The notes beneath the pieces are model-generated. The model worked only from the letters and a program-made list of their open reading frames with translations, had not been told where the DNA came from and searched no databases. A DNA stretch of 39,773 nucleotides from a virus: positions 1 through 39,773 of the IMG/VR virus record IMGVR_UViG_3300025759_000227; one strand, given 5' to 3'. The number at the start of each line of letters is the position of its first letter. Position 1 is the first letter of the stretch. This document shows, piece after piece, positions 604 through 37,459 of this stretch. The translations under genes were made by a program, and so were the position numbers.

Positions 604-615
604 AGTGTTAGTCAC
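604..615 (-). repeat. junction motif copy A (GTGACTAACACT)
   Basis: Copy of the genome-wide motif with final T instead of C. It is oriented with transcription and lies 11 bases upstream of the start codon at 592, in the gap between the neck-like gene and the 97-aa gene. Confidence 0.85.
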
Positions 616-631
616 CTCGGATAAAAAAAAA

Positions 632-1363
632 TTAATAAGTTGAGACCTGCAGTCTGGTTGTTTGGCCTTGCTGAGTATGAAGCTTCAAAAGCTCATGGTC
701 TAAGGCACCTCGGGCATCGGATTCGGCTACCCTAGCTCGATCCAATTCACCATTGTGTCGCAGGTAATCTGCATACGTTCCTCGGATAAGGTAGTCAGCA
801 AACAGCTCTGGTATCGTGACCAGATCCCAATATGTTGGTTGAGTTGTCGGGCTGTTATCGGCACCAGAAGCTACCGATTGATTTGCAACGTAAAAGTTGC
901 CTTGTGTCTTGTCGTAAACCTGATCGTTCTGGTTATAAGCAGTAGACTGAGAGTAAACCTCCCCTGTCAGTGCTGGTGGCAATTTGCGAAACAGGATGTA
1001 AACGGTGGTATTGTTTTCCGCAATCTGGACACCGTTTTCGCTTAAATACCAGGTGAGATCCTGATTGTCCTGATTTGCTTTTGGGCTTTTATTCCAAACC
1101 GCAAACACCTCTGAGATCTCGGTTTGACCAGGCTGATTGAGTGCAACGTAGTTGCCTTCATCGCCACCCGTTTGAGTGACTGTCCTCTGTTCAGTGGAAC
1201 AGGTCGAAGGCCATTTGGCAGCTTGCCATCCAAACTTGATTCGCCTGGATAACAGGTCTCTGAATAATCGCCATTCAACTGTTGGCAGAGTTGCAGATTC
1301 AATGCCTGCCAAGTTCAAGACTTGGATAAGCGTTCTGCCATAGTTCAGTGGACTAAGACCCAT
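632..1363 (-). CDS. neck/head-tail connector-like protein
   Basis: The 243-residue protein starts MGLSPLNYGRTLIQVLNLAG. Its N-terminal part (about 1-50) has the short helical pattern of head-completion proteins. A middle stretch around 140-175 (YSQSTAYNQNDQVYDKTQGN and on) resembles carbohydrate-binding-module repeats that contain a Y-x-x-G-D-x-V-type core. The C-terminal helix-rich part (about 185-243) includes a long charged segment. It follows the major capsid and 103-aa genes, the usual place of head-tail joining proteins in short-tailed phages. It overlaps the upstream gene by 11 bases. The neck role is inferred from order and fold pattern; a minor tail protein is the alternative. Confidence 0.55.
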   Translation of the reverse strand: MGLSPLNYGRTLIQVLNLAGIESATLPTVEWRLFRDLLSRRIKFGWQAAKWPSTCSTEQRTVTQTGGDEGNYVALNQPGQTEISEVFAVWNKSPKANQDNQDLTWYLSENGVQIAENNTTVYILFRKLPPALTGEVYSQSTAYNQNDQVYDKTQGNFYVANQSVASGADNSPTTQPTYWDLVTIPELFADYLIRGTYADYLRHNGELDRARVAESDARGALDHELLKLHTQQGQTTRLQVSTY

Positions 1364-1664
1364 ACCCTACCTGTATTTTTCCGGTTCCTTGGGACTTCAC
1401 TTTCAGCTCTGGGTTTCTTTCGGAAATGTATTTCCTGAAATTGGGGTCTTTCCAAATCTCCTTACCTTCTCGTCGAGTCCATTCATGGTAGACTTTTGAG
1501 TCCACTTCCATGACTGGCTTCCCTATCCCGTTGATGGATTTTCGGTTTTGATTTTGACTGGCGATTTGTTTCTGCCTACGTGCAGCTTCACCATGGCTAC
1601 TCTCGTAACCTTCATAGTGGTCTTTTGCCAATCGGTCCCTGAGCTGTTCTGAGTAATCGGACAT
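1353..1664 (-). CDS. small charged protein after the major capsid gene, unknown
   Basis: The product has 103 residues, starts MSDYSEQLRDRLAKDHYEGY and is very rich in Lys, Arg, Glu and Gln. The N-terminal half is predicted helical, and the C-terminus is a basic, Gly-rich tail (KSQGTGKIQVGYGS). No cysteine cluster or catalytic pattern is seen. It lies between a strong hairpin downstream of the capsid gene and the connector-like gene it overlaps. A small head-completion or DNA-binding virion protein would fit, but I do not recognise a family. Confidence 0.55.
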   Translation of the reverse strand: MSDYSEQLRDRLAKDHYEGYESSHGEAARRQKQIASQNQNRKSINGIGKPVMEVDSKVYHEWTRREGKEIWKDPNFRKYISERNPELKVKSQGTGKIQVGYGS

Positions 1665-1685
1665 ATAAATTTAAAATGAAAGCGT

Positions 1686-1727
1686 CCCTCAAATGGGGGG
1701 ACCACTCGGCCCCCCCGTGTCCGAGGG
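1686..1727 (-). terminator. strong G/C hairpin between capsid and downstream genes
   Basis: The left arm GGGGGGACC (1695-1703), loop ACTC and right arm GGCCCCCCC (1708-1716) form a 9-bp stem with one mismatch (G-U in the minus-strand RNA). An outer pair CCCTC (1686-1690) and GAGGG (1723-1727) extends it. There is no U-tract after it on the minus strand, so it may work as an mRNA stabiliser or partial attenuator, not as a classical terminator. Confidence 0.5.
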
Positions 1728-1732
1728 TTGGT

Positions 1733-1756
1733 TTTACCTCAGTTCCCTGAGGCAAA
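1733..1756 (-). terminator. hairpin directly after the major capsid gene
   Basis: TTTACCTCA (1733-1741) and TGAGGCAAA (1748-1756) form a 9-bp stem with one mismatch and a 6-base loop. It lies six bases past the capsid stop codon. No long U-run follows in either direction, so terminator function is uncertain; 3'-end protection of the abundant capsid message is equally possible. Confidence 0.4.
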
Positions 1757-6217: not shown

Positions 6218-6228
6218 GGTGTTAGTCA
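6218..6228 (-). repeat. junction motif copy B (TGACTAACACC)
   Basis: Exact copy, on the coding strand, one base before the portal ATG and six bases after the terminase stop. It fills almost the whole gap between the two genes. Confidence 0.9.
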
Positions 6229-6234
6229 CTCGGA

Positions 6235-9356: not shown

Positions 9357-9367
9357 TATGTTAGTCA
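9357..9367 (-). repeat. junction motif copy C, variant (TGACTAACATA)
   Basis: Eight or nine bases of the motif are kept. The TAA inside it is the stop codon of the gene ending at 9361 (GGT GAC TAA). It lies about 20 bases upstream of the TATAAT for the packaging genes. Confidence 0.6.
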
Positions 9368-9696
9368 CCTTCATCAAATCCAAGGATATGCCCCTTGAAT
9401 TGGCTACGTAGTAGCTTCATGCCGTTGGTTGAGTTGAGACTGGTGAGTATCATGTCAGCCTGCATCAAGCAGTATCCTCTGATCTCATCGTAACCCTCCT
9501 TGATGTAAGGGGTCCATGTCTTGGGGTCATCCTCAGGTTTTCTTACTCCTGACCATGGCCCTGCTACCTGGGTTAAGCCATAGCTACCATTATTCTCCTC
9601 ATAGGTAGCGACTACCTGAGTGTTTGACTGGGAGTCTAGCCATTGAGCTGTGACTCCGTGCTTGTGACTTAATACGACGATTGGTTGTATGTTCAT
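9361..9696 (-). CDS. unknown phage protein of the early region
   Basis: The product is 111 residues from ATG 9696 (MNIQPIVVLSHKHGVTAQWL). The frame is open further upstream, to 9741, but that part overlaps the zinc-ribbon gene and looks non-coding (MSVRIAKGGVLRKKT). The protein has a beta-rich first half and a helical C-terminus ending in LGFDEGD. It has no recognised family. Its stop codon is the TAA inside motif copy C. It shares 98 bases with the zinc-ribbon frame. Confidence 0.55.
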   Translation of the reverse strand: MNIQPIVVLSHKHGVTAQWLDSQSNTQVVATYEENNGSYGLTQVAGPWSGVRKPEDDPKTWTPYIKEGYDEIRGYCLMQADMILTSLNSTNGMKLLRSQFKGHILGFDEGD

Positions 9697-9963: not shown

Positions 9964-10425
9964 TTAAAATGGTTGGTTTAAATCTTGTTGAGCCATGGCG
10001 AATACTTGTCCCCTTCCAAGGTCAGTCAGGTTCTTCGGATCGATCAATGATTCCTTGCTGGTGAATCCTGCAAATTTGTATGTAGGAAACTCTCCCACCA
10101 TGAGTGCGTATACATCAACTCCCTCACCTTTCCATCGTGCTGCTATGAGTTTCCCCGAAGCGTATTTGGTGGTCTTGACATCCACTGCATGTCCAGTGTG
10201 AAGAAGGCAATCTGCGTCAGGTATCACGTCTATCTGGAAATCAGGGTATACATTCATAAGCTTGCAGTAAGCCATCTCCCCTGCAATGCCCTCCAGATCG
10301 GTTATCTCGTCACTTTGAGGACCTTTCCTTACGTTTACCTTTCCTTCCTTCCTGGCATGCTCATGACGCTTTTTGGCTAGGAATTTAGCATACCTCTGCT
10401 CCTCGGGGGATAACGTGATTTCCAT
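9964..10425 (-). CDS. PD-(D/E)XK-like nuclease-fold protein, unknown role
   Basis: The 153-residue protein starts MEITLSPEEQRYAKFLAKKR. A helical N-terminus leads to GIAGEMAYCKLMN (Glu about 50), then a DADCLL segment and GHAVDVKTTKYASGKL. This E...D...D-x-K order is that of PD-(D/E)XK nucleases, where the acidic residues bind metal and Lys is catalytic. Such small phage proteins occur beside nucleotide and replication genes. Nuclease activity is inferred only from the motif. The start lies 18 bases after motif copy D. Confidence 0.5.
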   Translation of the reverse strand: MEITLSPEEQRYAKFLAKKRHEHARKEGKVNVRKGPQSDEITDLEGIAGEMAYCKLMNVYPDFQIDVIPDADCLLHTGHAVDVKTTKYASGKLIAARWKGEGVDVYALMVGEFPTYKFAGFTSKESLIDPKNLTDLGRGQVFAMAQQDLNQPF

Positions 10426-10428
10426 GAT

Positions 10429-10950
10429 TTATTTAGTGTAGTAGGTGTTAGTCACTTCCACCAGAAAATCCTCTTTTGATCCGTTGTTAACAATCAGGTG
10501 ATCTGCCTTGATGGCTCCTATCTGAGTCTCACTGATATGATCGTCTTTGAGTCCAGTCTCTCTGACTATCTTCCAGACCTGCCCTCCAAGGCCCGATACC
10601 CAGACTTGTTCATACGCAAACCTCATATCATCGATCACCAATGCGTTGTATCCATGGTTCTGATAATGGTTCCATGCTTCCGCTAATTGCTTCAACCATA
10701 CATCCCTTCCACGCATGATCTTCATGCTCTCAGCAACAGACTGATAGACGGGTCTCAGGGTAGCCTTATCAGCTTCCTTATAGGTTCCGAAGATCTTTGC
10801 CACCTCTGACTTTATAGGGTCTGCGAAACCCAGTCTGATAGCCTTTAATCCATCTTTTTCCAACAGTGCCATGACATGCTTGGAAGCCGTGCTTTTACCG
10901 CTTCGCTTCTTGCCTGCCAAAGCAATGATATTACTTGTTTTCTTTGCCAT
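10429..10950 (-). CDS. deoxynucleoside monophosphate kinase-like P-loop protein
   Basis: The start at ATG 10950 shares one base with the stop of the gene before it (TAATG), giving 173 residues. A GTG at 10959 would add three. The P-loop GKKRSGKST is at about 12-20. LGFADPIKSEVAKIF, a conserved RGRDVWLKQLAEAW region and an LVIDDMRF segment follow, the pattern of T4-type and related phage dNMP kinases. These phosphorylate dNMPs to dNDPs to feed phage DNA synthesis. The C-terminus EVTNTYYTK is encoded by motif copy D in frame, so the repeat has become part of the coding sequence. Confidence 0.7.
   Translation of the reverse strand: MAKKTSNIIALAGKKRSGKSTASKHVMALLEKDGLKAIRLGFADPIKSEVAKIFGTYKEADKATLRPVYQSVAESMKIMRGRDVWLKQLAEAWNHYQNHGYNALVIDDMRFAYEQVWVSGLGGQVWKIVRETGLKDDHISETQIGAIKADHLIVNNGSKEDFLVEVTNTYYTK
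10444..10454 (-). repeat. junction motif copy D (TGACTAACACC)
   Basis: Exact copy inside the end of the kinase-like gene, read there as V-T-N-T. It is 18 bases upstream of the ATG of the next gene at 10425. Confidence 0.9.
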
Positions 10951-11129
10951 TAATTCCACCTGCTTTTAATTGGTTCAGAGTCTTCATCGTGCAACTCAAA
11001 GTCTGTATCTTCCTGAGAGAGCAATGGGAGTCCGTATAACAGCTTGCCCATGCTCGCATTATTGGTGACTGAATTCTGTATTTCGATGACGTTGCCATCA
11101 TGGTCTTCAAGTGTGATAGTGATGATCAT
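10950..11129 (-). CDS. small acidic protein between helicase and kinase genes
   Basis: The product is 59 residues: MIITITLEDHDGNVIEIQNS to a C-terminus SEPIKSRWN. The ATG overlaps the helicase stop (ATGA) and the TAA overlaps the next ATG, so coupling on both sides supports it as a real gene. It is acidic with a beta-strand start. No family recognised. Confidence 0.6.
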   Translation of the reverse strand: MIITITLEDHDGNVIEIQNSVTNNASMGKLLYGLPLLSQEDTDFELHDEDSEPIKSRWN

Positions 11130-12454
11130 TTCGGAAGTTTATTCTCAAGGACAGGTGGTCCCTCGACACCAGTAAACCTACTATTCCACCTTGTGTATTC
11201 CAAGGACACCTTGGCTTCCTGAATGCCATTTCTGTTCTTGCGGATGTAGAAGTTGACGATACCGTCATCGGGTTCATCCTCCTTGGTATTTGGAACCAGG
11301 AATCCCACACTGTCAGCATCCTGCTCTGCAGTCCCTGAATCCCTCAGATCTGAGAGTCTTGGTATACTGGATTCACGTTTATCAAACTCTCGATTCATCT
11401 GAGCCAAGAGAAGGACTGGAACACCACATTCAAGGGCTATGATCTTGATTGTCCTAGTCATGGCTCCTACTTCGTTGACTCTGTTCTCATACCTTCCCCC
11501 AGAACGTAGCAAGGTAAGGTAATCGATAATGAGCATGTCCACTCCCTTGTCTTGAACAAATCGCCTTGCCTGGGACCTGAGTTGATCAACAGTTATTGCA
11601 GGGGTGTCTTCTATGTGAATCGGTAGTTCAAAAAACTCCTTTGTAGCTCTGGCTATCTTTCCTTTATCCCCATGTCCTGTCTTCAGGTAATGCCTGACAT
11701 CTTCACCTGATAGAATGGCTACAGCACGCTCTGCAATGGAGTTATAAAGCATCTCCAGAGACCATAGGGCTACACGCTTACCCTGCTTTGCAGCTTGTAT
11801 TGCTAGATACATCGAAAAAGCTGATTTACCACCACCAGGTCTTCCACTGATGATGTAAACTGCACCAGGGAGAAACCCACCCAGCTTCTGATCCAAACCA
11901 TAGATTCCAGACTTAATTGAGAGATCAGGAACACCACCGTCTACAGCACTCTCCAGAACCTCGACAAATCCCTTCTGAGCTGCCTTCTGATCCTTCTCTG
12001 CTGTCATGCCTCTAGTAGTCTGCCAGAGATCGTCCTGAAGCCTCTGTAGAAGCTTCTCAGGGTCTTGCTCAACCTTACTCTCCTCGATGGCAGCGTAGTG
12101 CTTGAGAAAGACTTTCCTCCTGATGTATGCAGCATATGCTTGCTTTGAATAGTAGCTCAGGTTTGAGGCAGATGGTGAATGCTCGATCAGATCATCGATG
12201 TATAAAGCATTCTTCACTGATTGCCTTGAAACAGTCACCTGATCGATCTGACCACCGTCTTTAACGATGTTCTCACAAGCTACCCAGATCTGTTGGTGTC
12301 TCATGTCAGAAAACCATTCGGAACTCACCCCTAACTCTTCAGCTTCGCTGAAAGCCCCTAGAAGAACACAAGAAAGAAGTCCTTTCTCTGCATCCAAGTC
12401 CTCGGGAATGTCGTATTCAATTGAGATTTTATTGCTTTGCTTTTGAAGGGTCAT
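11126..12454 (-). CDS. dnaB: replicative DNA helicase, DnaB type
   Basis: The 442-residue protein has the DnaB arrangement. The N-terminal helical domain (about 15-130, LDAEKGLLSCVLLG) precedes the RecA-like ATPase. That domain has Walker A GRPGGGKS (204-211), Walker B MLIIDYLTLL (about 307-316), AQMNREFDKR (H3-like) and a LRDSGTAEQDADSVGFL switch region. It unwinds the template at the phage fork, loaded by the initiator encoded just upstream, which overlaps by four bases. Length is normal for the family. Confidence 0.93.
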   Translation of the reverse strand: MTLQKQSNKISIEYDIPEDLDAEKGLLSCVLLGAFSEAEELGVSSEWFSDMRHQQIWVACENIVKDGGQIDQVTVSRQSVKNALYIDDLIEHSPSASNLSYYSKQAYAAYIRRKVFLKHYAAIEESKVEQDPEKLLQRLQDDLWQTTRGMTAEKDQKAAQKGFVEVLESAVDGGVPDLSIKSGIYGLDQKLGGFLPGAVYIISGRPGGGKSAFSMYLAIQAAKQGKRVALWSLEMLYNSIAERAVAILSGEDVRHYLKTGHGDKGKIARATKEFFELPIHIEDTPAITVDQLRSQARRFVQDKGVDMLIIDYLTLLRSGGRYENRVNEVGAMTRTIKIIALECGVPVLLLAQMNREFDKRESSIPRLSDLRDSGTAEQDADSVGFLVPNTKEDEPDDGIVNFYIRKNRNGIQEAKVSLEYTRWNSRFTGVEGPPVLENKLPK

Positions 12455-12942
12455 ATTTGGAAATACTTTTTGCCTGCCTTAATATCAGCAGCAACAGTCT
12501 TAGGGACATCTGATCTTTTGGATCTTCCTGCCAAAATGATCTCTGTGAGGATTTCGTCCCTATTACTATTATTATTAATATCTATATCTATTATATTATT
12601 AGTTAGTGTACGTGATCGCGTACACGTTGTATCGTTAACGTGTCCGTCCTCGCGTACACGTTGTTTCTGTGAGGTGTTAGTCATAGGGACCGATTTTATC
12701 GGCTTGCCCTTGGTCCTGGCTAGGTAGCAAGTGGATCTTCCAGCCTTTTTTTGATCCAACCAACCATGGTCAACCAAGACCTTAAGAGCCTTCCACAATC
12801 GAGTCTTGCAAACACCCAGGGTAGATGCCATGGATCGCTTGTCATCGAAGCAGACACCTCTCATACAGACATAGAGGTAGGCTTCTCTCTGGATTGGAGA
12901 GAAACCCACCTCATATATCCACTGGGGAATGACTGGTCTCAT
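12451..12942 (-). CDS. winged-helix replication initiator, lambda O-like
   Basis: The 163-residue protein starts MRPVIPQWIYEVGFSPIQRE. Residues about 12-75 form a winged helix (FSPIQREAYLYVCMRG, KRSMASTLGVCKTRLWKALKVLVDHGWL). A low-complexity linker (about 90-130, including NNIIDIDINNNSN) and a short basic C-terminus follow. A DNA-binding N-terminus, a linker containing repeats and an AT-rich tract at the DNA level, and the helicase gene directly downstream match the lambda O layout. The predicted job is to bind the origin in its own gene and recruit helicase. Motif copy E lies in frame as M-T-N-T (residues 87-90). It is coupled to the 29-aa gene upstream. Confidence 0.65.
   Translation of the reverse strand: MRPVIPQWIYEVGFSPIQREAYLYVCMRGVCFDDKRSMASTLGVCKTRLWKALKVLVDHGWLDQKKAGRSTCYLARTKGKPIKSVPMTNTSQKQRVREDGHVNDTTCTRSRTLTNNIIDIDINNNSNRDEILTEIILAGRSKRSDVPKTVAADIKAGKKYFQI
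12561..12664. other. candidate replication origin inside the initiator gene
   Basis: Two exact copies of the 15-mer TCGCGTACACGTTGT (12616-12630 and 12650-12664) lie 34 bases apart. An inverted repeat GTGTACG...CGTACAC (12606-12625) overlaps the first. A nearly pure A/T tract (about 12561-12605) follows. Iterons next to an unwinding tract within an initiator gene are the lambda origin design. Origin activity is inferred. Confidence 0.55.
12673..12683 (-). repeat. junction motif copy E (TGACTAACACC)
   Basis: Exact copy inside the initiator coding sequence, in frame as Met-Thr-Asn-Thr, next to the iterons. It is one of the few copies not at a gene boundary. Confidence 0.9.
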
Positions 12943-15410: not shown

Positions 15411-16023
15411 CATGCTCCTCCACTTCTGCATGAACTACTGGTTCTCCCGTTTTTTTCTTATACTCTGGAGATTTAGCAATCTCAACCTGATCCCATTCCA
15501 TCAATGCATCCCAGTTGTGAGGGTGATGCTCTATCTCGTATTCCATGAATGGGTTCTCAGCTTCAGGGACATCATAGCGGAACTGATCGGTCCCTGGCTT
15601 GCGAGGAATTTTAGAGTAGCTTTCAAACTTGCAATATTTCTTGCCATTTTTGGAAATAGCGTGACTAACATCGATAGTGAGAGCTTGCCCAAAGTGCGAG
15701 CTTGGCTCCAAAGACTTATCCAGCGATAGATTGGCCCCATTACATGCGGACAAGATCTTGTAAAGGTTTGAACCTTCCCCGTGGACGTTTGTTACTGTCA
15801 CTCCTCTGATCGCAGGCTTTTCCGGTTCACCTTCCTTAAAAGATTTTCGGACCTCCACAAATTCAAAGGTAAGCTTTAATTTTTTAACTGGAGCTTTTTT
15901 AGGGTCGTAGTTTGGATGCGTCCCAAGATCCACGCAACTGATCAGCCTTGCTGAGTGTGGTCCTTCTGGAATAGGCGGTGCAAACGATGTCATCTGACTT
16001 ACCGGTGCTACTAGTATGCTCAT
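15394..16023 (-). CDS. DUF669-like single-stranded DNA-binding protein
   Basis: The 209-residue protein starts MSILVAPVSQMTSFAPPIPE. A beta-rich core (about 20-140) contains GPHSARLISCVDLGTHPNYD, KKLKLTFEFVEVR and GQALTIDVSH, an OB-fold-like pattern seen in phage DUF669-type proteins. The C-terminus is acidic (VVHAEVEEHDDVSF), as in SSB proteins where it contacts partner enzymes. The exonuclease gene starts inside its end. It should coat single strands made by the exonuclease. Confidence 0.6.
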   Translation of the reverse strand: MSILVAPVSQMTSFAPPIPEGPHSARLISCVDLGTHPNYDPKKAPVKKLKLTFEFVEVRKSFKEGEPEKPAIRGVTVTNVHGEGSNLYKILSACNGANLSLDKSLEPSSHFGQALTIDVSHAISKNGKKYCKFESYSKIPRKPGTDQFRYDVPEAENPFMEYEIEHHPHNWDALMEWDQVEIAKSPEYKKKTGEPVVHAEVEEHDDVSF

Positions 16024-16546: not shown

Positions 16547-16575
16547 ATTGTATCCTGCTGATGCTGTTAAGTTGA

Positions 16576-16586
16576 GGTGTTAGTCA
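16576..16586 (-). repeat. junction motif copy F (TGACTAACACC)
   Basis: Exact copy heading the early minus operon; preceded by AT, it also reads as a mini-ORF M-T-N-T-S-T-stop. Confidence 0.9.
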
Positions 16587-16639
16587 TAATCGCACATGTG
16601 AATAACTATCTCAAAATTTTTCTTTACTTATTTTTATGG

Positions 16640-16652
16640 GGTGTCAAACACC
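16640..16652. promoter_or_regulatory. palindromic operator candidate in the divergent control region
   Basis: GGTGT-CAA-ACACC is a perfect 5-bp inverted repeat. It contains the minus-strand hexamer TTGACA (16642-16647), a candidate -35 for the early minus operon, although no good -10 is seen. It lies just ahead of the RHH gene, so the RHH protein may bind here and control both itself and the early genes. Confidence 0.45.
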
Positions 16653-16656
16653 GATT

Positions 16657-16892: not shown

Positions 16893-16903
16893 GGTGTTAG
16901 TCA
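16893..16903 (-). repeat. junction motif copy G (TGACTAACACC)
   Basis: Exact copy on the minus strand, downstream of the RHH gene. One base after it a minus-strand ATG opens a 57-codon frame antisense to the RHH gene. Confidence 0.9.
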
Positions 16904-16942
16904 ATAGAAGGTCCAATTGTTTTTAAATTATATTTTGTGACA

Positions 16943-16974: not shown

Positions 16975-17000
16975 AATTATAAACTTATCTCTTAATTGTA

Positions 17001-18106: not shown

Positions 18107-18133
18107 ACTCATGTCGCAGCAATAAGGCTGATA

Positions 18134-18144
18134 TGACTAACACC
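18134..18144 (+). repeat. junction motif copy H (TGACTAACACC)
   Basis: Exact copy 12 bases before the ATG at 18157. With the preceding A it forms a mini-ORF ATG ACT AAC ACC TAA. Confidence 0.9.
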
Positions 18145-18156: not shown

Positions 18157-18378
18157 ATGAATAGATCAGAAATTATCGCAACCGTAACAGAACATGCAGT
18201 CAATACCTTTGAATTCTCATGCTCATGGAGAAGTATCCCTGCCGTGATTGAAGAAGAGTTGAGGTTTCACGGCATCAAGCCAACAAAGCCTTTGGTTTTT
18301 TGGATTGTGAATTTAGCAAAGTTGGCATGGGCTGGAGAGGTTGAGCGTGTCAAAAACATTATCAACCAAGATGCCTAA
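18157..18378 (+). CDS. 73-residue unknown accessory protein
   Basis: Starts MNRSEIIATVTEHAVNTFEF. Helical, with FHGIKPTKPLVFWIVNLAKLAWAG forming a hydrophobic helix that is too polar for a clear membrane span. It ends NQDA, and its TAA is part of motif copy I. It is the first gene behind the operator-controlled promoter, so it may be expressed in the lysogen. No family recognised. Confidence 0.55.
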   Translation: MNRSEIIATVTEHAVNTFEFSCSWRSIPAVIEEELRFHGIKPTKPLVFWIVNLAKLAWAGEVERVKNIINQDA

Positions 18379-18382
18379 CACC
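18372..18382 (+). repeat. junction motif copy I, variant (TGCCTAACACC)
   Basis: One base differs from consensus (A to C at position 3). It supplies the stop codon of the 73-aa gene and is 15 bases before the next ATG. Confidence 0.75.
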
Positions 18383-18397: not shown

Positions 18398-18718
18398 ATG
18401 AAAAAAGTTACTCGCAAAATTAGCTACCTTGAAACAGGACATGACTCATACCCCGAGCTAACACCCTTGAGCTTAGGAGCAGACCTAACAGCATTTTCTG
18501 CCATCCAAGACCTAGATAAATCATTTGTTGGCTCGACTCACTACCTCGGATTGTTTCCGTTTTGGAACGTCGAATACAAATACGACTTGAGAGACGTTAG
18601 CCCAAAAGCTCGTCAGGCAGTGCATCATGAGCTGCTCCGTAAAGGCAAGAAGCTCTCAGGCAAAAGCCCATCCATTAAAAAGATTATTGAAACAACTTTG
18701 TCAGCACTCAATGACTAA
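18398..18718 (+). CDS. 106-residue unknown accessory protein
   Basis: Starts MKKVTRKISYLETGHDSYPE. A mixed N-terminal part with LGLFPFWNVEYKYDLRDVSP in the middle is followed by a basic helical C-terminus (HHELLRKGKKLSGKSPSIKK) and ends in LND. The final GAC TAA is inside motif copy J. An AGAAAG purine run before the ATG serves as a weak ribosome site. No family recognised. Confidence 0.55.
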   Translation: MKKVTRKISYLETGHDSYPELTPLSLGADLTAFSAIQDLDKSFVGSTHYLGLFPFWNVEYKYDLRDVSPKARQAVHHELLRKGKKLSGKSPSIKKIIETTLSALND

Positions 18719-18722
18719 CACC
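18712..18722 (+). repeat. junction motif copy J (TGACTAACACC)
   Basis: Exact copy that contains the stop codon of the 106-aa gene and lies 15 bases before the ATG at 18738. It also reads as mini-ORF ATG ACT AAC ACC TAG. Confidence 0.9.
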
Positions 18723-18737: not shown

Positions 18738-18977
18738 ATGACCATTGAAGAAGCAAAAAACATATACGCAAAAGTTGAGAGGAGCGATTCAGTTGCTGGA
18801 TTGCCTGACATTTTGACGGCACTAGGTTTCTCTCCTGTTGAGGGGTATGAAGACTGTGTGATCACTCGATCAATGTTTGAAAGCATTGTTGAAAACATGC
18901 ACCGAGAAGATGAAGACATCTCTGTTGATGGGTTGGCTGACATGCTCGATTTTTACAGTGAAAATGGACACGTTTGA
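18738..18977 (+). CDS. 79-residue acidic unknown protein
   Basis: Starts MTIEEAKNIYAKVERSDSVA. Very acidic, helical, with a REDEDISVDGLADMLDFYSE C-terminal region. Such small acidic phage proteins often act as inhibitors or DNA mimics, but there is no specific evidence here. Its TGA is followed at once by motif copy K. Confidence 0.55.
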   Translation: MTIEEAKNIYAKVERSDSVAGLPDILTALGFSPVEGYEDCVITRSMFESIVENMHREDEDISVDGLADMLDFYSENGHV

Positions 18978-18978
18978 A

Positions 18979-18989
18979 TGACTAACACC
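18979..18989 (+). repeat. junction motif copy K (TGACTAACACC)
   Basis: Exact copy three bases before ATG 18993. It is in frame with the methyltransferase-like gene, where it would read M-T-N-T-Y-M-R if translation began at 18978. Confidence 0.9.
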
Positions 18990-18992: not shown

Positions 18993-19589
18993 ATGAGAAT
19001 TTTAGTTGCATGTGAATCAAGCGGAACTGTCAGGGATGCATTTATTGCTAAAGGTCACGAAGCAGTAAGTTGTGACATTTTACCCTCCGAGGTTGGAGGC
19101 CCTCACATTCAAGGGGACGTCCTTGAGGTGATTGATCAAGATTGGGACATGATGATAGCTCACCCACCCTGCACATACCTTTCATCTTCGGGGATGCATT
19201 GGACAACCAGAGGTCTCAGAGACCCTGAACTCACTGAAGATGCTTTAGCGTTTGTCCGCAAATTGCTCGATGCAGACATAGAGAAAGTTGCGGTTGAAAA
19301 CCCAGTAGGAGCAATTAGCACTCGCATACGAAAACCTGATCAATACATTCACCCTTACCAATTCGGAGATGATGCATCCAAGAAAACCGGACTTTGGCTT
19401 AAAGGGTTGCCCTGCTTAATTCCCACTAATTACATCGAGCCAAGAATGGTGGGAGGGAAACCCAGATGGTCTAATCAAACCGATTCCGGTCAGAACAGAT
19501 TAGGTCCATCGCAGGACCGGTGGAAACAACGATCCAAGACTTACCAAGGCATTGCACTGGCAATGGCAAACCAGTGGCAGTATGACTAA
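18993..19589 (+). CDS. DNA cytosine-5 methyltransferase-like protein
   Basis: The start at ATG 18993 gives 198 residues (MRILVACESSGTVRDAFIAK); ATG 18978, inside the motif, would add five. SAM site LVACESSGTVRDAF (motif I), HPPCTYLSSSG with the PPC nucleophile Cys60 (motif IV) and VENPVG (102-104, motif VI-like) are visible. The family occurs in many tailed phages as a short C5-MTase-like protein. It lacks a clear target-recognition region and is shorter than full enzymes (about 300 or more residues). Protection from host restriction is likely; activity is not proven. Confidence 0.72.
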   Translation: MRILVACESSGTVRDAFIAKGHEAVSCDILPSEVGGPHIQGDVLEVIDQDWDMMIAHPPCTYLSSSGMHWTTRGLRDPELTEDALAFVRKLLDADIEKVAVENPVGAISTRIRKPDQYIHPYQFGDDASKKTGLWLKGLPCLIPTNYIEPRMVGGKPRWSNQTDSGQNRLGPSQDRWKQRSKTYQGIALAMANQWQYD

Positions 19590-19593
19590 CACC
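19583..19593 (+). repeat. junction motif copy L (TGACTAACACC)
   Basis: Exact copy that holds the stop of the methyltransferase-like gene (TAT GAC TAA) and lies 11 bases before the lysin ATG. Confidence 0.9.
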
Positions 19594-20018: not shown

Positions 20019-20209
20019 CCGAGAAGCGTAAAGTAGGTCCCCCAAAGGGATCGCAAAATAGAATCAAGGTGGCAGGGAAACCTGCCTCCTCCTTTCTCAA
20101 TATGAGATGCAGACCAGATCAGAAGGATGCCTGGGTGAAAGCTGCCAAGGGAGATGGCAAGTCCCTTACAGACTGGGTATCGGACACACTGGATGACGCT
20201 TGCAAATAG
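20015..20209 (+). CDS. small RHH/DUF1778-like protein
   Basis: Start ATG 20015 overlaps the lysin stop; 64 residues, MTEKRKVGPPKGSQNRIKVA. FLNMRCRPDQKDAWVKAAKG and DGKSLTDWVSDTLDDA have a strand-helix-helix pattern like DUF1778/Arc-type proteins, which are often antitoxins or regulators. The N-terminal tail is basic. No toxin partner is seen nearby. An in-frame start at 19937 is open but lies inside the lysin gene. Confidence 0.5.
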   Translation: MTEKRKVGPPKGSQNRIKVAGKPASSFLNMRCRPDQKDAWVKAAKGDGKSLTDWVSDTLDDACK

Positions 20210-20218
20210 TGTTAGTCA
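20208..20218 (-). repeat. junction motif copy M, reversed (TGACTAACACT on minus)
   Basis: Opposite in direction to its plus-strand neighbours. It begins one base before the end of the RHH-like gene and stands just ahead of the radical-SAM gene. With copy N it flanks the radical-SAM cassette as an inverted repeat. Confidence 0.85.
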
Positions 20219-20235
20219 CCGAGTAAATTGGTTGT

Positions 20236-21997: not shown

Positions 21998-22602
21998 TAA
22001 CTTCAGGAACCAGCTCGCACGATAGCCTTCGACAAGACTACTTTGAGCCAAGCTTGAATCGATGTGAGCCTGTCGAATGGTTGCACTTTCAGAAACAAAG
22101 CCAGGACCCAGGCAACTTCATGTCAGGTGATTGGCTGGACTCAGTTGGGTGGGCTACCAGGAATGCATTAGATGCCACAAAAATAGTCCCTCAAGGACGT
22201 GTGATGGTGATTGCGGATCTTGACATTACTTGGCTCCCTGGTGCATTCACAGAGCTTGAAAGTATCGCTCAAAACGGCATCTGGGCAATGAGGGAGAATA
22301 GGAAGGGTTTAATTAATACAGGGATAATTGCAGCTCGAAACACTAGCCCTTTTCGATGGTTACTGGATCAGGTTATCGAGGAGATGGATCACTCTGGGTT
22401 ACATGATCAGGACGCTTTGCGTAATGTTGCCTTTGACAGGGTCAACTTGCTCCCGTCATCGTTTGCAAACACCAAGACTCTGGGTATGACGAAAAGGAAA
22501 GATATTCTTTGCTACCACGCAATCTGTAGTATTGCAGATGACCAGGAATCCAGTGTAGAGAAGAAAAAGAAATTGTTGGATAAATTTATTGACGGTGACT
22601 AA
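21985..22602 (+). CDS. GT-A-type glycosyltransferase-like protein
   Basis: The 205-residue protein starts MVYLITSGTSSHDSLRQDYF. VMVIADLDITWL contains the DxD (78-80) metal/nucleotide-sugar site, NTG at 111-113 is a typical acceptor loop, and HDQDAL (140-145) is a catalytic His-Asp-type motif seen in nucleotide-diphosphosugar transferases. The enzyme would move a sugar from a nucleotide donor to an unknown acceptor. The stop codon lies inside motif copy N. Together with the two genes before it this forms a coupled three-gene cassette. Confidence 0.65.
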   Translation: MVYLITSGTSSHDSLRQDYFEPSLNRCEPVEWLHFQKQSQDPGNFMSGDWLDSVGWATRNALDATKIVPQGRVMVIADLDITWLPGAFTELESIAQNGIWAMRENRKGLINTGIIAARNTSPFRWLLDQVIEEMDHSGLHDQDALRNVAFDRVNLLPSSFANTKTLGMTKRKDILCYHAICSIADDQESSVEKKKKLLDKFIDGD

Positions 22603-22606
22603 CACC
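22596..22606 (+). repeat. junction motif copy N (TGACTAACACC)
   Basis: Exact copy ending the radical-SAM cassette (GGT GAC TAA is the glycosyltransferase stop). No plus gene follows; the copy leads into a hairpin and the terminator. Confidence 0.9.
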
Positions 22607-22707: not shown

Positions 22708-22748
22708 CCCTCCCCTTGCTGTTGGATGCAAATAGGGGAGGGTTTTTT
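22708..22748 (+). terminator. rho-independent terminator of the plus-strand block
   Basis: CCCTCCCC (22708-22715) pairs with GGGGAGGG (22735-22742), with a TGC/GCA pair inside the loop, followed by six T (22743-22748). It ends plus-strand transcription where it meets the convergent internal-protein operon. Confidence 0.85.
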
Positions 22749-25700: not shown

Positions 25701-28700
25701 CAAGTTCCTCCCACTTCAGTCCATAATACCTTCGAGCAAGCTTACTGTTCAAATGGTTGTTGGGCTTCATGGACGTGATACCCACTAACGGGAACCCGTC
25801 CCTGCGAAGGCGAGTGATAAAAGCCTTTGCTGAGTTTATATTAGTAAAACCCCATCCATCATATAATGCTAAATGTCCTGGTCCACCTCGGAACTGAACA
25901 GCTACACCGTTAGCATTCCGGTCCCTTGCTCCAGAGGAGTCAGTAGTGAGGACTTGGATCTTTTTGTTGTTTAAGTCTCTCAGGTCTATGTTGGGATTGT
26001 CTGGGGATGGGCTGAATCTAGCTAAGTCTGCTGGCTTCAGAACTGTTGTCTGTCCTGGTTTAAAAGTTCTGGGTCTGAAGTTAACCCCTGCTCGATTGTA
26101 AGCGTCTTCCGAGAAGTTGACCTTGGTATCCCTGGTTGTCATCTGGACAATGCGATCCAGTCTGAAATCTCGCCAGGGAAAGTTTTTCTCTACCTCGTTA
26201 AACTTAGTGCCTTCAGGGACGAGGATATTGTTTTTCTGATTCCTGACCCTAAGGACCTTATTCAGTATATCTCTCTTCTTTGCCGATCCCAGGACCTCTG
26301 CTGTTGGTGTTTGACCAGAGGACAATGCATCCAGGTAAGTCAGGAGATCTCGTTGCATCTCCTCTATGTTGCTAAATTCTTTCTGGGTCTCTGGGTTTGC
26401 AAACTCTTTGGCTACTCTTTGATCCAAGAGCGTCTTGTCTGCAACCTTAACTCGCATGGTTCCTGTCTCAGGGGACACAATGAAATTGTAAAGAATCGCA
26501 TCTCGGTTGCTCAAAGGCAGATTACGGTATCGAGTCCCTTTTTTTACCTTCGTGGTAGCTGCAGCATACAAAACATTCATCAACCCACTGTCATCTGGCA
26601 TCTCCTTGATCTTCTCCAAGGCTTTTCGGAGGGTTCCAGTAATTGCATCTGAAGCCAAGAGGGCATCGATCTGTTTTCTGCTGAAACGTAGGCCTGAGTA
26701 GTTGCCTCTTTCATCTCGGATCAATCCTCCCGTGTCATCTACTGAATCCAAAACCTTAGCCATGGTCCTGGTTCGTTCTGCTTCGATCTTCTTGACCTGA
26801 GCAGCACTCTTAATCATCTCTCTCTTACCAGTGGCTGTTACCCTGGCAGCACCCATATCGACAAGTTCCTGGAAGATGGCATCATCCTTCAAGTCAAAGT
26901 CACTGTAGACTCGGACAGGAGTATCTACGGAAAGGTTGATGTTTCTCTTGGACCTTCTCCTTGCTCTGACCAAATCGTCAATGGATCTGTTGATCGCTTT
27001 TGACTGCTTGATAGGGGTGTCGAAAATGTCGCTTTTAAAAGTGTTGTGAACCCTGTCAAGCTTGCCTGCTACGAATCGATCAGTGATACCTCGGATAGCT
27101 TCCCTGATGGGGTTGCCTTTAAATAAATAATTACTGTCTTTGCCTTTAATGTAATTGGCGAAGTATTCAGCACCGATCTCTTCCAGGATTGAATTAAATT
27201 TCTTGTCTCGATCTGATTTGCCTGGAGTGTCATCAGTCACCAGAAGCTTGCCTGACTTTTCATAGTCATTGATCAGCGTGTCGATCTCCTGATCTTTGTA
27301 AAGCTTGCCTACCTGATCCTTGATGCGCTGAACCATGACTTCAAAGCCATCAATTCTCGCAATAGCATGGAAGGTTTCATGAGCTAACGTTCGTAGGTCT
27401 GAATTGGTGTTTAGGTGGATGACAGGTCTGCCACCTTCTTGAGTGTAAGCACCTCCACCACCTTTGAGGGTGATGTCTTTTCCCTGGGCATCCTGACCTA
27501 TAACAGTTTCATCAGTCCCGTATCGAATGATGGGTTCTGCTTCAGAAGTTGAGCCAAGTATGACCTGCTCCAGATCCATTGCTCGGATCAAGTCATCTCT
27601 GTTTGTGTAGCGTCCCAGGGAAGCCCTGTCTTCATCGCTTTTACTTTCGAGCCATGTGACTAGATCACTGTCTTGAGCTGCCCTCTTTGCTGCTCCTGTT
27701 GCTCCTTCAACAAACCTCCCCATGGTTCCACCGAATGCACCCATGGCACCACCAGAACCAATACCCTGAGCTAACCCCTCAACCCCTCCTGTTGCCAGAC
27801 CTATGCCTGCACCAATACCTACACCTGTCACTGCACCTGATGCAGCCCTGCCAGCATAGTTGGTGGGAGTGTCCAGGAACTTGAGCTTACCAGCAAGGTA
27901 GCCAGCAGCAGTGTCTGGTGAGTTGAGTGCCATCCTTGCAAGGCCACCAGATCTGGTAGGGTTGACCTTCATGGCGTCCCCGAAATTACGTAGCAATCCA
28001 CCAGCAACTTCCATTGCTGCAGGAACACCAGCAACAGCCAGAGTTCCCATGCCTGCAGTGCCAAGGTCCAAGGCTCCTACGCCAACTGCAGCACCCACTC
28101 CCCCAGGGACTGCATACCTGCCAAGGCCACCGCTTGCTTCGTCAACTTTTGAAGCCAGGTTGCCCACGGCATCAGTTGCACTGGACCGCAAGTCACTGAG
28201 TCTCCTTCCACCAGCAGACATCATATCGCCTGCAGCGGATACTGCTCCTCCGGTCACTCTACCTGTTGTCTTGGCAATCGCAGTTCCTACTTTGGAGCCA
28301 GGTATAAGTAAGCTTGGATCTGCAAACTCACCAAGGAATTCTGCTGCACCTTGGTTGAATTTCTCAGGGTCAATCTTTGCTCCATTGGCCCCTGCCCATT
28401 CCATGTACTCATTCCAGGCAGATTTATCACCTCGATCAATTTTGGACCTGACGTTCTGCAGTTCTTTGACCTTCAGAAAACGTCTGTATTGGTTTTCTTT
28501 TTCGTCATCAGTCCTACCACCAAACCCTTCGATTTTAGACATGAGGTAACCTTGAGCCATACGTCCCATGGTTTCAGTGTCGTAAGTCCCTCTGCCAACT
28601 CCTTCTGCCAGAGTTCTCGCAGAAACTCCCATCTCAAGAGGGTTTGCGAATGTCTTGAGGAACTCTGGTAGATTGGTAAGAAGTCTTCCTGCAGTGGAAG

Positions 28701-28944
28701 TGAATGCGTCTGCTGCCATTCCAGCAAACCGTCCTGCAGTCATATCGGGCCTTGCCTGCAGATACCTCTCATGATCCTCCTTGGAAAGAGATGCTGCAGG
28801 AGTGTCAGGGTTCTCAAATCGAGCTACCAGCTTTTCGTCTGGCTCGGGATAGTCGCGTGTAATGATTTCGTCAATCCTGCTGTCCGACATATCGTCCGGG
28901 AATTGCAGGTTTACATCATAATCTTGCAGGTAGATGTTTTGCAT
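22747..28944 (-). CDS. giant polyvalent internal virion protein with metallopeptidase motif
   Basis: The 2065-residue protein has Gly/Ala-rich hydrophobic segments (about 278-320 and 370-408), fit for membrane insertion. An HExxH zincin motif LAHETFHAIA (His522-Glu-Thr-Phe-His526) follows, then several LPD-type segments. These include a region reading FLEEIQSDWHQEGRKEGY and, near the C-terminus, FKKSWPEFSMKRMLKLAADE then YDAIAWTRGD. Both are typical of large polyvalent proteins that are injected with phage DNA. Likely roles are a channel into the cell plus effector or protease action early in infection. It is the last gene of the internal-protein operon and shares one base with the gene before it. 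Confidence 0.8.
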   Translation of the reverse strand: MQNIYLQDYDVNLQFPDDMSDSRIDEIITRDYPEPDEKLVARFENPDTPAASLSKEDHERYLQARPDMTAGRFAGMAADAFTSTAGRLLTNLPEFLKTFANPLEMGVSARTLAEGVGRGTYDTETMGRMAQGYLMSKIEGFGGRTDDEKENQYRRFLKVKELQNVRSKIDRGDKSAWNEYMEWAGANGAKIDPEKFNQGAAEFLGEFADPSLLIPGSKVGTAIAKTTGRVTGGAVSAAGDMMSAGGRRLSDLRSSATDAVGNLASKVDEASGGLGRYAVPGGVGAAVGVGALDLGTAGMGTLAVAGVPAAMEVAGGLLRNFGDAMKVNPTRSGGLARMALNSPDTAAGYLAGKLKFLDTPTNYAGRAASGAVTGVGIGAGIGLATGGVEGLAQGIGSGGAMGAFGGTMGRFVEGATGAAKRAAQDSDLVTWLESKSDEDRASLGRYTNRDDLIRAMDLEQVILGSTSEAEPIIRYGTDETVIGQDAQGKDITLKGGGGAYTQEGGRPVIHLNTNSDLRTLAHETFHAIARIDGFEVMVQRIKDQVGKLYKDQEIDTLINDYEKSGKLLVTDDTPGKSDRDKKFNSILEEIGAEYFANYIKGKDSNYLFKGNPIREAIRGITDRFVAGKLDRVHNTFKSDIFDTPIKQSKAINRSIDDLVRARRRSKRNINLSVDTPVRVYSDFDLKDDAIFQELVDMGAARVTATGKREMIKSAAQVKKIEAERTRTMAKVLDSVDDTGGLIRDERGNYSGLRFSRKQIDALLASDAITGTLRKALEKIKEMPDDSGLMNVLYAAATTKVKKGTRYRNLPLSNRDAILYNFIVSPETGTMRVKVADKTLLDQRVAKEFANPETQKEFSNIEEMQRDLLTYLDALSSGQTPTAEVLGSAKKRDILNKVLRVRNQKNNILVPEGTKFNEVEKNFPWRDFRLDRIVQMTTRDTKVNFSEDAYNRAGVNFRPRTFKPGQTTVLKPADLARFSPSPDNPNIDLRDLNNKKIQVLTTDSSGARDRNANGVAVQFRGGPGHLALYDGWGFTNINSAKAFITRLRRDGFPLVGITSMKPNNHLNSKLARRYYGLKWEELVETGKVTAREANKHIKEAMNRIINSKAEKSPLTKQQMSTIAGIKTYKDFAKVFEEIPWKAAPVIYTKLDGKTLPIKQSRLKELGMDLETVANELREPAYEGIGPGTLLAIAEYGGKSPEYRPELNENYPYFVGLKEKAFLKEFTEVTNLTSRKDVATKSGKPNSAVLMGAGVVLDKLASGEVRFSPSRPLKNSAPSIPDSWQTATGDVAKGDTIKFTEGVFGGSWKKPSYLGDREIVAEVLNDSYGADKQQHTFSLRVISSSGVQPIEKGKATRRKGRNVYRNGTQRLTWQDEAARQVALDEKHQRGDKARGARDERKKYRSQSDSFRFSPQRELDSLGMYSKAQEAIEGMQQKRGTGQQFLKAMEKAGVKAEEIEDIGLDTFLKDNPRVNKEEVLDFIKANQIEMVEVSKAKVTALAPNDGASSYWIVDTERLDNSTTQGPFDTPEEALMAKDEILNEWVKEEASNYEIQLVKNLSESEKRNFDFDPNRLDEYVIKPYDLARINSTFTDKAMAEDALSTMLEEDFDGRYRVDLNENLPETTDYTRYSSYTEPGAEPDTYTERLLTLPKVDNSPPLMHPVHPDAQASRFGPYDSSHFDQSNIVSHVRHNDRIGPDGEKILFLEEIQSDWHQEGRKEGYYHKDRKNLIREYNDYYQKGDPRQIYKRWGESLVDFEKNQDLALAWQPENEREIKAKARLMEKHKSTYQKMLEEGRELTAKINRMEELENTLDTMGETPNAPFKKSWPEFSMKRMLKLAADEGYDAIAWTRGDTQNARYQLGDKVTGIDVIDYGEGSYELMVRMPNEDVFKTVETNISKEKLPDYIGKELTQRALDNMESSGEGMRNAVLEGENLRLGGKGMRGFYDDKLPKLKIWKQTKDGNGNRLKPVRKMISDDLEANYVALNDSVKKKISSQGMPRYSPEVKLNKTRDLNKRGGAIYTNERGDRAVQTSLRAGIRIYSTQGKRIGPVFKSIEKAERHLAKMGK

Positions 28945-36440: not shown

Positions 36441-36443
36441 AAA

Positions 36444-36905
36444 TCATCCCAGTATGTCCAACGCTTTTTGAATCTCGGTCTGGGTCCCTTTTATTTTCTG
36501 ATCCGTTCTGACTTTTTGCTTGGTAGCTTGAGCTACTTTGGTATCCAGGCTGGATAACTCTCTCTTAAAATCCTGAGCTGCAGATACTGCAGAAATGGTA
36601 GCGTTCTTCCACTTCCTCGATCTCACATGTGCCAGTATTCCTAAGGCTCCCAATACAGCATTAGCGATCAATCCTCCGTAAGGAGTGGGAGCCAAGTCTC
36701 CTGCCAGGTTAACTCCAGTTTTTACATTGGGAGAAACCACCCATCCATTAGTTGTAACCATGGAAACTGGTCCCTGGGCTGTATCTAGAGTGTTAGTCAC
36801 CGTGATCGGTTCGTAAATGCTGTCCGCTATTTTTTCCCAGTGGGTGCAACCGCTCAAAAAATACATGGCTGACACCAGGAATGCTAAGTCAATCGCTTTT
36901 CTCAT
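36444..36905 (-). CDS. spanin-like lipoprotein
   Basis: The 153-residue protein has a signal MRKAIDLAFLVSAMYFLSGC with lipobox FLSGC, so it is predicted to be a lipoprotein. A hydrophobic segment about 80-92 (GLIANAVLGALGILAHV) is followed by a long coiled-coil-like C-terminus (about 105-150). It neighbours the holin. This is consistent with an outer-membrane disruption (spanin) subunit. Motif copy O lies in frame (V-T-N-T), within residues 34-40, a position for a possible internal start. Confidence 0.55.
   Translation of the reverse strand: MRKAIDLAFLVSAMYFLSGCTHWEKIADSIYEPITVTNTLDTAQGPVSMVTTNGWVVSPNVKTGVNLAGDLAPTPYGGLIANAVLGALGILAHVRSRKWKNATISAVSAAQDFKRELSSLDTKVAQATKQKVRTDQKIKGTQTEIQKALDILG
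36789..36799 (-). repeat. junction motif copy O (TGACTAACACT)
   Basis: Copy inside the lipoprotein gene, read as V-T-N-T. It is one of the few copies not at a boundary. Confidence 0.7.
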
Positions 36906-37086
36906 CTTCTTTATTTCCTTTGATAATTTTAGACCAAATCACAATGCATTTTCCGGTCATGTAACCTGCAGTGGCAAGTGCGATACCTAGCCTAGCCCAT
37001 GACTCAATTCCATCCGCCCAAGATACCGTCCAACCGATAACTCCAATGCAAAGGAATCTGATGGTATCAGTAAGTTCTCCTGCCAC
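36889..37086 (-). CDS. holin-like small membrane protein
   Basis: From GTG 37086, 65 residues: MAGELTDTIRFLCIGVIGWT. Two hydrophobic segments (IRFLCIGVIGWTVSWA and LGIALATAGYMTGKCIVIW) with a charged tail KGNKEDEKSD are the class II holin layout. A longer frame to 37188 exists, but that part overlaps the gene 37115-37444 by 74 bases and there is no good start in between. It overlaps the spanin-like gene start by 17 bases. A holin would time lysis by opening the inner membrane. Confidence 0.55.
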   Translation of the reverse strand: MAGELTDTIRFLCIGVIGWTVSWADGIESWARLGIALATAGYMTGKCIVIWSKIIKGNKEDEKSD

Positions 37087-37114
37087 CTTTTTTGGTCCCC
37101 TTTTTGCCCATGTC

Positions 37115-37444
37115 TCAAGCCCAGACTCGTTGAGGTGTTTCAGGCTCCACTTTGAAAGGCTCCAATGCGTCACCGTCCTCGTCACCAACCAACCTCACGT
37201 TGGCAAAATAACCCTCCTCGTAGACAGCAGGAGTTAGCTCGTTGCCTTCGTCATCGAAAGTAGCTGGGGTCAGCACGACCTTTGGAAGGATGTCCGTGTT
37301 CCTGTAGTTCTGCTGGCGTTCCCACTTTGTAGGGATCGGATTGTCAGGATCAGAATTGTCCCACTCCACTGGAACCTCGGTATACAGCACTGAATCAGCT
37401 TCAGTCTGGTCTGCGAATTTTAGGTAGTAGTCTTGAAATGTCAT
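37115..37444 (-). CDS. small virion-associated protein, unknown
   Basis: The 109-residue acidic protein starts MTFQDYYLKFADQTEADSVL. The C-terminal YFANVRLVGDEDGDALEPFK followed by a proline-rich end TPQRVWA is a pattern I recognise from many marine phage genomes, where it lies next to fibre genes, but no function is known. A partial motif copy (P) precedes it. It overlaps the long frame of the holin gene. Confidence 0.6.
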   Translation of the reverse strand: MTFQDYYLKFADQTEADSVLYTEVPVEWDNSDPDNPIPTKWERQQNYRNTDILPKVVLTPATFDDEGNELTPAVYEEGYFANVRLVGDEDGDALEPFKVEPETPQRVWA

Positions 37445-37450
37445 GTGATT

Positions 37451-37459
37451 CGTTAGTCA
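37451..37459 (-). repeat. junction motif copy P, partial (TGACTAACG)
   Basis: The first eight bases are kept; it lies six bases before the ATG at 37444, in the 21-base gap after the adhesin gene. Confidence 0.45.

Follow-up and report, generated by a model that had tools for sequence, protein, structure and literature searches.

The 39,773-base virus record IMGVR_UViG_3300025759_000227 (the whole stretch of DNA analysed here, henceforth the window) carries an 11-base motif, TGACTAACACC, that recurs through the genome, and the question it raises is what reads this repeat. A first-pass annotation had offered three options: that the motif acts in translation or as part of the mRNA, that a phage protein binds to it, or that it is a linker used in recombination. 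Our analysis favours the second of these and disfavours the other two. From comparison of related phages we hold, with moderate confidence, that the motif represents the most frequent version of a 13-bp near-palindromic operator of a regulator encoded by a temperate phage, most likely the 63-amino-acid ribbon-helix-helix (RHH)-like protein RHH-A, and that these operators would form a dispersed, stoperator-like set silencing lytic genes.

The repeat and its placement in the window

All ten exact copies of TGACTAACACC reported previously were found (minus strand: 6218, 10444, 12673, 16576 and 16893; plus strand: 18134, 18712, 18979, 19583 and 22596), as were three T-ended copies (604, 20208 and 36789), which belong to a set of five one-mismatch forms, and the variants at 9357, 18372 and 15662; a further variant placed at 37451 is absent from the 25 matches found when at most two mismatches are allowed. 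Ten of these 25 have two mismatches and are mostly chance, because shuffled sequences average 9.6 matches at that tolerance. The stricter forms far exceed the shuffles, with 13 copies of the 10-mer TGACTAACAC against a mean of 0.05 and a largest count of 1 in 100 dinucleotide shuffles, and 14 copies of the relaxed form [AG]TGACTAACA[CT] against 0.07. The sequence NTG ACT AAC is read in 15 of 17 motif matches (the other two are 18372, ATG CCT AAC, and 33461), and the full unit is a 13-bp element, RRTG-ACTAA-CACC, of which the 11-base motif is the visible part. The repeat is real, but its unit is this longer near-palindrome, the core of which varies by phage group.

On the minus strand, sites lie at 604..616 (GGTGACTAACACT; junction of w632 and w299, with orthologous sites in 14 of 22 listed records and cores that follow the group), 6218..6230 (AGTGACTAACACC; between the stop of the terminase gene, TerL, and the ATG of the downstream portal-like gene), 9357..9369 (GGTGACTAACATA; over the stop of w9361, with an identical 13-mer in the related records G002 and G004), 10444..10456 (AGTGACTAACACC; in the final codons of w10429, at its junction to w9964, where a site occurs in all 21 listed records) and 12673..12685 (TATGACTAACACC; within the helicase-loader-like gene and retained in G002 and G004). 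The name TerL comes from distant matches whose annotation is large terminase, and that of the portal from its position only. Further along are the minus-strand sites 16576..16588 (TATGACTAACACC), at the head of the leftward early genes and 81 bp upstream of RHH-A, and 16893..16905 (ATTGACTAACACC), 1 bp ahead of the ATG of a second small open reading frame (ORF), RHH-B; between them a palindromic candidate operator (GGTGTCAAACACC, 16640..16652) immediately precedes the RHH-A ATG. On the plus strand, a site ahead of the first rightward gene past the integrase (18132..18144, TATGACTAACACC) is followed by gene-junction sites at 18370..18382 (the variant GATGCCTAACACC), 18710..18722 and 18977..18989 (both AATGACTAACACC) and 19581..19593 (TATGACTAACACC), and the site at 22594..22606 (GGTGACTAACACC) lies at the stop of the gene that ends the rightward series. 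Of two further minus-strand copies of GGTGACTAACACT, one covers the stop of an Arc-like ORF and points opposite to the rightward genes (20208..20220), and the other lies within gene w36444 (36789..36801). The plus-strand match at 15660..15672 (CGTGACTAACATC) is antisense within a gene and possibly a chance match.

With genes called as greedy ORFs, made without a gene finder, 10 of 15 window sites (the variant 18370 and the palindrome 16640 left out) fall within 30 bp of a called gene boundary, as do 11% of window positions. The earlier statement that most copies sit at gene boundaries holds to this extent, with exceptions at 10444, 12673, 15662, 20208, 22596 and 36789. Across eight records (totals for placement and orientation omit G015, whose palindromic sites were counted twice), 49 of 82 sites are this close to a boundary, as compared with 9-15% of positions. 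This enrichment is evident for the window, G002, G004, G006 and G008 and weak for G009 and G014; G010, with 3 of 12 sites, does not reach significance (p = 0.08). The distance from a site to the next called start, put at 1-18 bases in the first-pass annotation, ranges in the window from 1 to 29 nt and reaches 87 nt at 9357, and is therefore too variable for a ribosome-binding site.

This spacing counts against the possibility that the repeat acts in translation or as RNA (a start-associated sequence, a hairpin, or AGGTG serving as a Shine-Dalgarno sequence), which we regard as very unlikely. Many copies do stand directly before a start codon, base pairing of AGGTG with 16S rRNA is conceivable at some sites, and GGTG-N5-CACC could form a 4-bp hairpin with a 5-nt loop, as is predicted for window copies 604 and 6218, both of the G type, and for most G008 sites. 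However, none of the five ATG-type window copies that were folded (of six) forms the site hairpin, and copies also lie within coding sequence, beyond the final gene of a cluster and, upstream of RHH-A, in the divergent region. Relative to the local genes, 47 of the 82 sites have the same orientation, 16 the opposite one and 19 a mixed one (10, 3 and 2, respectively, in the window), and sites run both ways in G006, G008, G009 and G014; copy 16893 looks antisense, yet directly precedes the ATG of an overlapping leftward ORF. Because both orientations occur and the folded ATG-type copies lack the hairpin, a DNA site is favoured over a translation signal. An Rfam scan of the window gave no match at gathering scores. 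We also considered a mini-ORF, in which NTG ACT AAC ACC would supply a start codon followed by T-N-T (MTNT), and rejected it, since the cores differ in relatives and some copies are antisense.

A DNA site could also be read by a phage activator, or be part of a phage-specific promoter turning on lytic operons. Window sites do lie near gene starts, mostly on the coding strand, and sigma-70-like sequences occur near 16576 and 18132; a leftward promoter-like pair (TTGAGA, 17 bp, GATTAT; 16614-16586, minus strand) overlaps the site 16576-16588. Against this stand the two orientations seen in relatives, the sites internal to genes or beyond the final gene of a cluster, and the frequency of promoter-like matches, which is near the shuffle level (5 in 16400-18200, as compared with 3.5). 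In addition, a PHROGs scan of 34 window ORFs, to which a 2065-amino-acid ORF did not belong, revealed no RNA polymerase. We consider such an activating role improbable.

Group-specific cores in related phages

A TerL search of viral contigs returned 78 loci, 16 of which carry TGACTAACA[CT], as compared with 2 of 78 for a reversed control pattern, and the 10-mer TGACTAACAC occurs in 7 of 31 records searched. In close relatives, copies are present at orthologous gene junctions. A k-mer census of 13-mers gave GGTGACTGACACC in G005-G008, GGTGTAATACACC in G015, and both GGTGACCAACACC and GGTGACCCACACC, together with one TGACTAACAC each, in G009 and G014; G002 and G004 (and also L087-L091) hold both ATGACTAACACC (eight copies) and GGTGACAAACACC (three). 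The frame common to the relatives is GGTG-N5-CACC, filled with the core ACTGA, ACCAA/ACCCA or TAATA, to which ACAAA is added in G002-type phages. This frame is strongly enriched over shuffled sequence in G008 (11 vs 0.95), G010 (15 vs 1.43), G006 (8 vs 0.80), G009 (8 vs 0.62), G014 (8 vs 0.38) and G015 (7 vs 0.33), and the enrichment is specific to the 5-bp gap: these six records have 7-15 matches at gap 5 and at most 4 at any other gap from 2 to 9. In eight records that lack RHH-A (G012, G013, G016, G019, G021, G022, G029 and G030; some are fragments), the frame gives 0-2 matches, within the shuffle range. Of the control arrangement CACC-N9-GGTG, G010 holds seven copies.

Within a phage, the cores tend to be the same: 54 sites in six records form 92 same-core pairs, as compared with a permutation mean of 24.7 and a maximum of 50 in 20,000 permutations. 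Across phages, they differ at the same place. At the w10429-w9964 junction, where all 21 records have a site, the core is ACTAA in window-type phages and G010, ACAAA in G002-type, ACTGA in G008-type and ACCAA in G009/G014-type phages, and the three ACAAA sites of G002 and G004 occupy junctions at which the window has GTG-ACTAA. At the TerL/portal junction, a site occurs in window-type and G002-type phages and in L024 and in none of the other relatives listed; judged by comparison of these sequences, it was gained or lost among them. The counts per junction are not independent, because duplicates (e.g., G021/L068) and many close relatives remain in the table after removal of 17 loci identical to G-entry records. 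Taken as a whole, these patterns are good comparative evidence that the cores change in concert across the genome as phage groups diverge.

Several other sequence features were observed. The site-less TerL/portal junctions of L044-L046, L049, L050, L052, L054 and L055 carry a TTGAC-containing insert, possibly a promoter or the site of another regulator. The capsid-w1353 junction (G008 2769, G010 3509 and orthologues) has a long palindrome, CCAGGTGACCCACACCTGG in G008 and G010, with a core unlike the phage's own, which perhaps forms an RNA hairpin after the capsid gene. In the motif-negative relatives, TGTC-N9-GACA emerged from counts of spaced dyads as a candidate junction repeat and was rejected, as half of its G013 matches (5 of 10) and most of its G019 matches (5 of 7) fall in helicase or helicase-loader genes; these palindromes (G013 24160-25536, G019 10293-11669) are possibly replication origin repeats.

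Candidate regulators beside the integrase

RHH-A (16657-16848, plus strand) adjoins a tyrosine recombinase and a tRNA-Ala-like attP. A profile search found it in eight records including the window, with a remote ORF in G015, and tblastn detected it in 13 of the 28 records compared; in all 13, several of which are near-identical, sites lie within 100 bp upstream of it. In the ACTAA-type records (8/8), one site stands at exactly -17 and another at -80 to -93, the former with the core TCAAA (CCAAA in G004). In the other types the sites are at -78/-79 with a half-degenerate one at -27 (G006, G008 and L137), at -96 and -72 (G014) or at -64 (G009). In the fragments G001, G005, G007, L019 and L024, sites are present, and RHH-A and the integrase are absent from the available DNA. 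That RHH-A is a coding gene is clearly indicated by its substitutions: in the stretch not shared with RHH-B, those between the window and G002 fall at codon positions 3:1:2 in the ratio 13:6:1.

Outside the window and G002 types, RHH-A retains 33-57% identity, as compared with 66-73% for the adjoining integrase, and its putative N-terminal strand segment reads KKCLAAWL with the core ACTAA, KRCISCWV with ACTGA and KRCLGAWV with ACCAA/ACCCA. This covariation of the pre-helix residues with the core group, which spans very few independent lineages, is suggestive, and it appears that the repressor has changed in step with its sites.

The alternative that the recombinase-like protein itself (17001-17969, plus strand; phrog_1) represses the sites has a published parallel and is, in our estimation, quite unlikely. 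The protein accompanies RHH-A and the sites in 13 of 13 RHH-A records, which would fit this role. Its 66-73% identity across phages of different cores and the retention, in all 13 records with the window-type integrase, of an attP-like 3' half of tRNA-Ala(GGC) (~17015-17064, anticodon loop included, overlapping the integrase 5' end) are rather as for a working integrase, and an LRVAE-type Arg, presumably the catalytic Arg, is invariant among the compared integrases. The parallel is MrpR of SPbeta, a recombinase-fold master repressor acting on a dispersed intergenic repeat, which lacks the first catalytic Arg (PMC10516654).

The integrase is not matched by PF00589, which among 17 records matches only G012 and G015; an integrase search returned 12 loci, 11 on contigs already in our set and the twelfth, L150, with 23% identity. 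An alignment search of genome contigs with TerL gave one relative (34%) among 20 candidate stretches, in a metagenome-assembled genome (MAG) of Verrucomicrobiota, and a 43-nt attP pattern, degenerate at four positions, occurs in one of 288 Verrucomicrobiota genomes, the same MAG, at tRNA-Ala(GGC). A Verrucomicrobiota host is only a lead, the attP search having covered that phylum alone.

RHH-B (16721-16891, minus strand), a 57-codon ORF convergent with RHH-A, covers the 3' two thirds of RHH-A, so that the two overlap tail to tail on opposite strands in the lysogeny region. The sites could be bound by RHH-B, or by both proteins in a switch of the CI/Cro type, a possibility that we consider unlikely. 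ORFs are found at this position in all 13 RHH-A records (ten aligned), a site lies 1-7 bp ahead of the RHH-B ATG in the eight ACTAA-type records, and G002 and G004 have two site classes. In the stretch unique to RHH-B, substitutions in close pairs fall chiefly at RHH-B third positions (four third, one second and one first between the window and L128). However, distant pairs are not dominated by third positions (five third, seven first and two second between the window and G002), and in the overlap, where RHH-A third positions are RHH-B second positions, changes at RHH-A positions 3:1:2 are 10:10:9 in distant pairs and 9:2:1 between the window and L127, mostly RHH-A third positions in such close pairs. 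The window RHH-B has no recognised family match and a single fold match with an E-value of 8, is 27-30% identical to the ORFs of G006, G008 and G014, and no site stands beside its start in G006, G008, G009, G014 or L137. It is possible, from these patterns, that RHH-B is coding.

The RHH assignment of RHH-A comes from models and profiles. An AlphaFold2 monomer (mean predicted local distance difference test score 81.9) has helices at residues 18-30 and 35-62 and a short one at 12-15. Foldseek ranked MazE6, PutA, ORF56, CopG, MatP and Arc at the top, and most of the top structural matches from Foldseek and VIA-align are known RHH proteins. The best match in a PDB profile search was 2kel (E = 0.044), likewise an RHH protein. 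ParG and MatP among these matches raise the further option that the sites serve as a centromere, in packaging or in recombination, as a linker for example, which is hardly probable at all: the sites are at junctions and upstream of RHH-A and do not form one array, and no ParA was recognised among the 34 scanned ORFs.

A number of observations weigh against RHH-A as the reader of a single operator type. The monomer model has no beta strand, the fold matches score low (best Foldseek E-value 0.43, best VIA-align Z 6.0), and RHH-A matches no Pfam family. Its co-occurrence with the sites is confounded by descent, as the integrase is distributed identically; genes such as w9964 also occur only in site-bearing records, and several RHH-A-negative records are fragments. 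G015 and G011 have the frame with the core TAATA and no close RHH-A homologue, and G015 has only the remote RHH-like ORF, with no site nearby and a different integrase. The strict frame GGTG-N5-CACC shows no clear excess in G004 (4 vs 0.67, shuffle maximum 4) or in the window (2 vs 0.65), in the latter because most left halves are ATG or AGTG and the palindrome is degenerate. The site at the capsid-w1353 junction has the core ACCCA in all eight listed site-bearing records, seven of them from groups with other cores, and in G002 and G004 the left half is linked to the core (eight A with T, three G with A, two G with T), a split into two site classes for which a single simple operator does not account. 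The helicase-loader-like w12451 has sub-cut-off Pfam matches to penicillinase repressor and helix-turn-helix (HTH) families, and its product is a possible alternative DNA binder. RHH-A is assigned as the binder by context and weak fold similarity, and is most likely that binder.

If RHH-A is the regulator, the protein made by the prophage would occupy the pair of sites that separates its own gene from the divergently oriented leftward early genes, and would from these upstream operators control both. At the dispersed junction sites it may block the initiation or elongation of transcription, keeping lytic genes silent and, we infer, conferring superinfection immunity. The site at 22594 lies after the last rightward gene, a position more in keeping with a roadblock than with promoter repression.

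Other window genes recognised encode a DnaB-type helicase, exonuclease VIII, RusA, a nucleotide kinase, a major head protein, an endonuclease VII/HNH protein, a DNA methyltransferase, an endolysin and a radical SAM protein. The Arc-like/TacA-like protein whose stop is covered by the opposite-facing site at 20208 (20021-20209, plus strand) is a second small protein of this kind; it was not found in G006, G008 and G014 and is therefore not needed for the sites. It was also the only repressor-named PHROG match among the 34 scanned ORFs, the L5 repressor not having been used as a query. The 2065-amino-acid ORF (22747-28944, minus strand) has a HETFH (HExxH-like) segment and counterparts of 8,154 nt in G008 and 7,347 nt in G010. 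Upstream of its RHH-like ORF, G015 carries repeated GGTATAC...TTTTTGTGTC-like units (12174-12474, minus strand). Named phages gave no near match to the first 20,000 bases of the window, and TerL matched five distant records among them, the best at 31%.

Comparison with known repressor systems

The first-pass annotation likened the repeat to mycobacteriophage stoperators and start-associated sequences; the former point in the right direction, and the latter do not. Cluster A stoperators (L5, TipsytheTRex) are described as 13-bp repressor sites in promoters and short intergenic spaces, one of them upstream of the repressor gene, with motifs that differ with repressor distance; they are asymmetric, lie mostly in one orientation and are bound by a monomeric repressor with HTH and stoperator domains (PMC6550527, PMC9283540). 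The sites studied here resemble these in that many copies of one ~13-bp site are dispersed over the genome, mainly at junctions, and, as for phage repressor operators, sites stand upstream of the gene of the candidate regulator itself in all 13 records that have it. They differ in their near-palindromic frame and in occurring in both orientations, and we therefore do not file them as L5-type stoperators; the candidate repressor differs as well, being a 63-amino-acid RHH-like protein. The start-associated sequences of Cluster K are repeats of an asymmetric 13-mer directly before starts, with a proposed role in translation initiation (PMC3203893), unlike the window repeat with its in-gene, post-gene and opposite-facing copies and variable spacing.

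Widely dispersed operators are shared with P1, in which one repressor, C1, has 22 operators over the genome (PMC8546580). The P1 consensus, in contrast, is 17 bp and asymmetric, the repressor is a different one, and P1 is a plasmid prophage. SPBRE of SPbeta offers a precedent in the way it was found: this intergenic repeat was noticed in silico before it proved to be the site of the master repressor MrpR, although its motif is 15 bp and MrpR has a tyrosine-recombinase fold (PMC10516654). Repeats of T1/Stevie and of Nostoc phage N-1, to which no function is assigned, have likewise been compared in print with stoperators. In the literature searched, which excludes most subscription journals and all bioRxiv preprints, we found neither the 13-mer GGTGACTAACACC nor any work joining 'ribbon-helix-helix' with 'stoperator'.

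To our knowledge, genome-wide repressor sites have been documented in few phage systems, and for this reason a change of repressor specificity alongside many scattered sites has been hard to study. Relatives with four cores at one junction and matching candidate regulators make this question of co-change directly testable in vitro, and GGTG-N5-CACC at junctions together with a small ORF beside the integrase provides a rule for finding lysogeny control in uncultivated phages. A bolder statement, which we put forward tentatively and hold to be rather doubtful, is that these phages represent an independently evolved second immunity of the stoperator type, in which a tiny RHH repressor would act through ~8-17 genome-wide operators whose cores change in concert, with a convergent RHH-A/RHH-B switch, each gene having its own operator, in ACTAA-type phages. 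In phage P22, the small RHH DNA-binding repressors Arc and Mnt act on local operators in one immunity region. Structures of Arc are among the fold matches of RHH-A, and in this respect the candidate would resemble Arc and Mnt; unlike the operators of Arc and Mnt, the sites described here extend over the whole genome.

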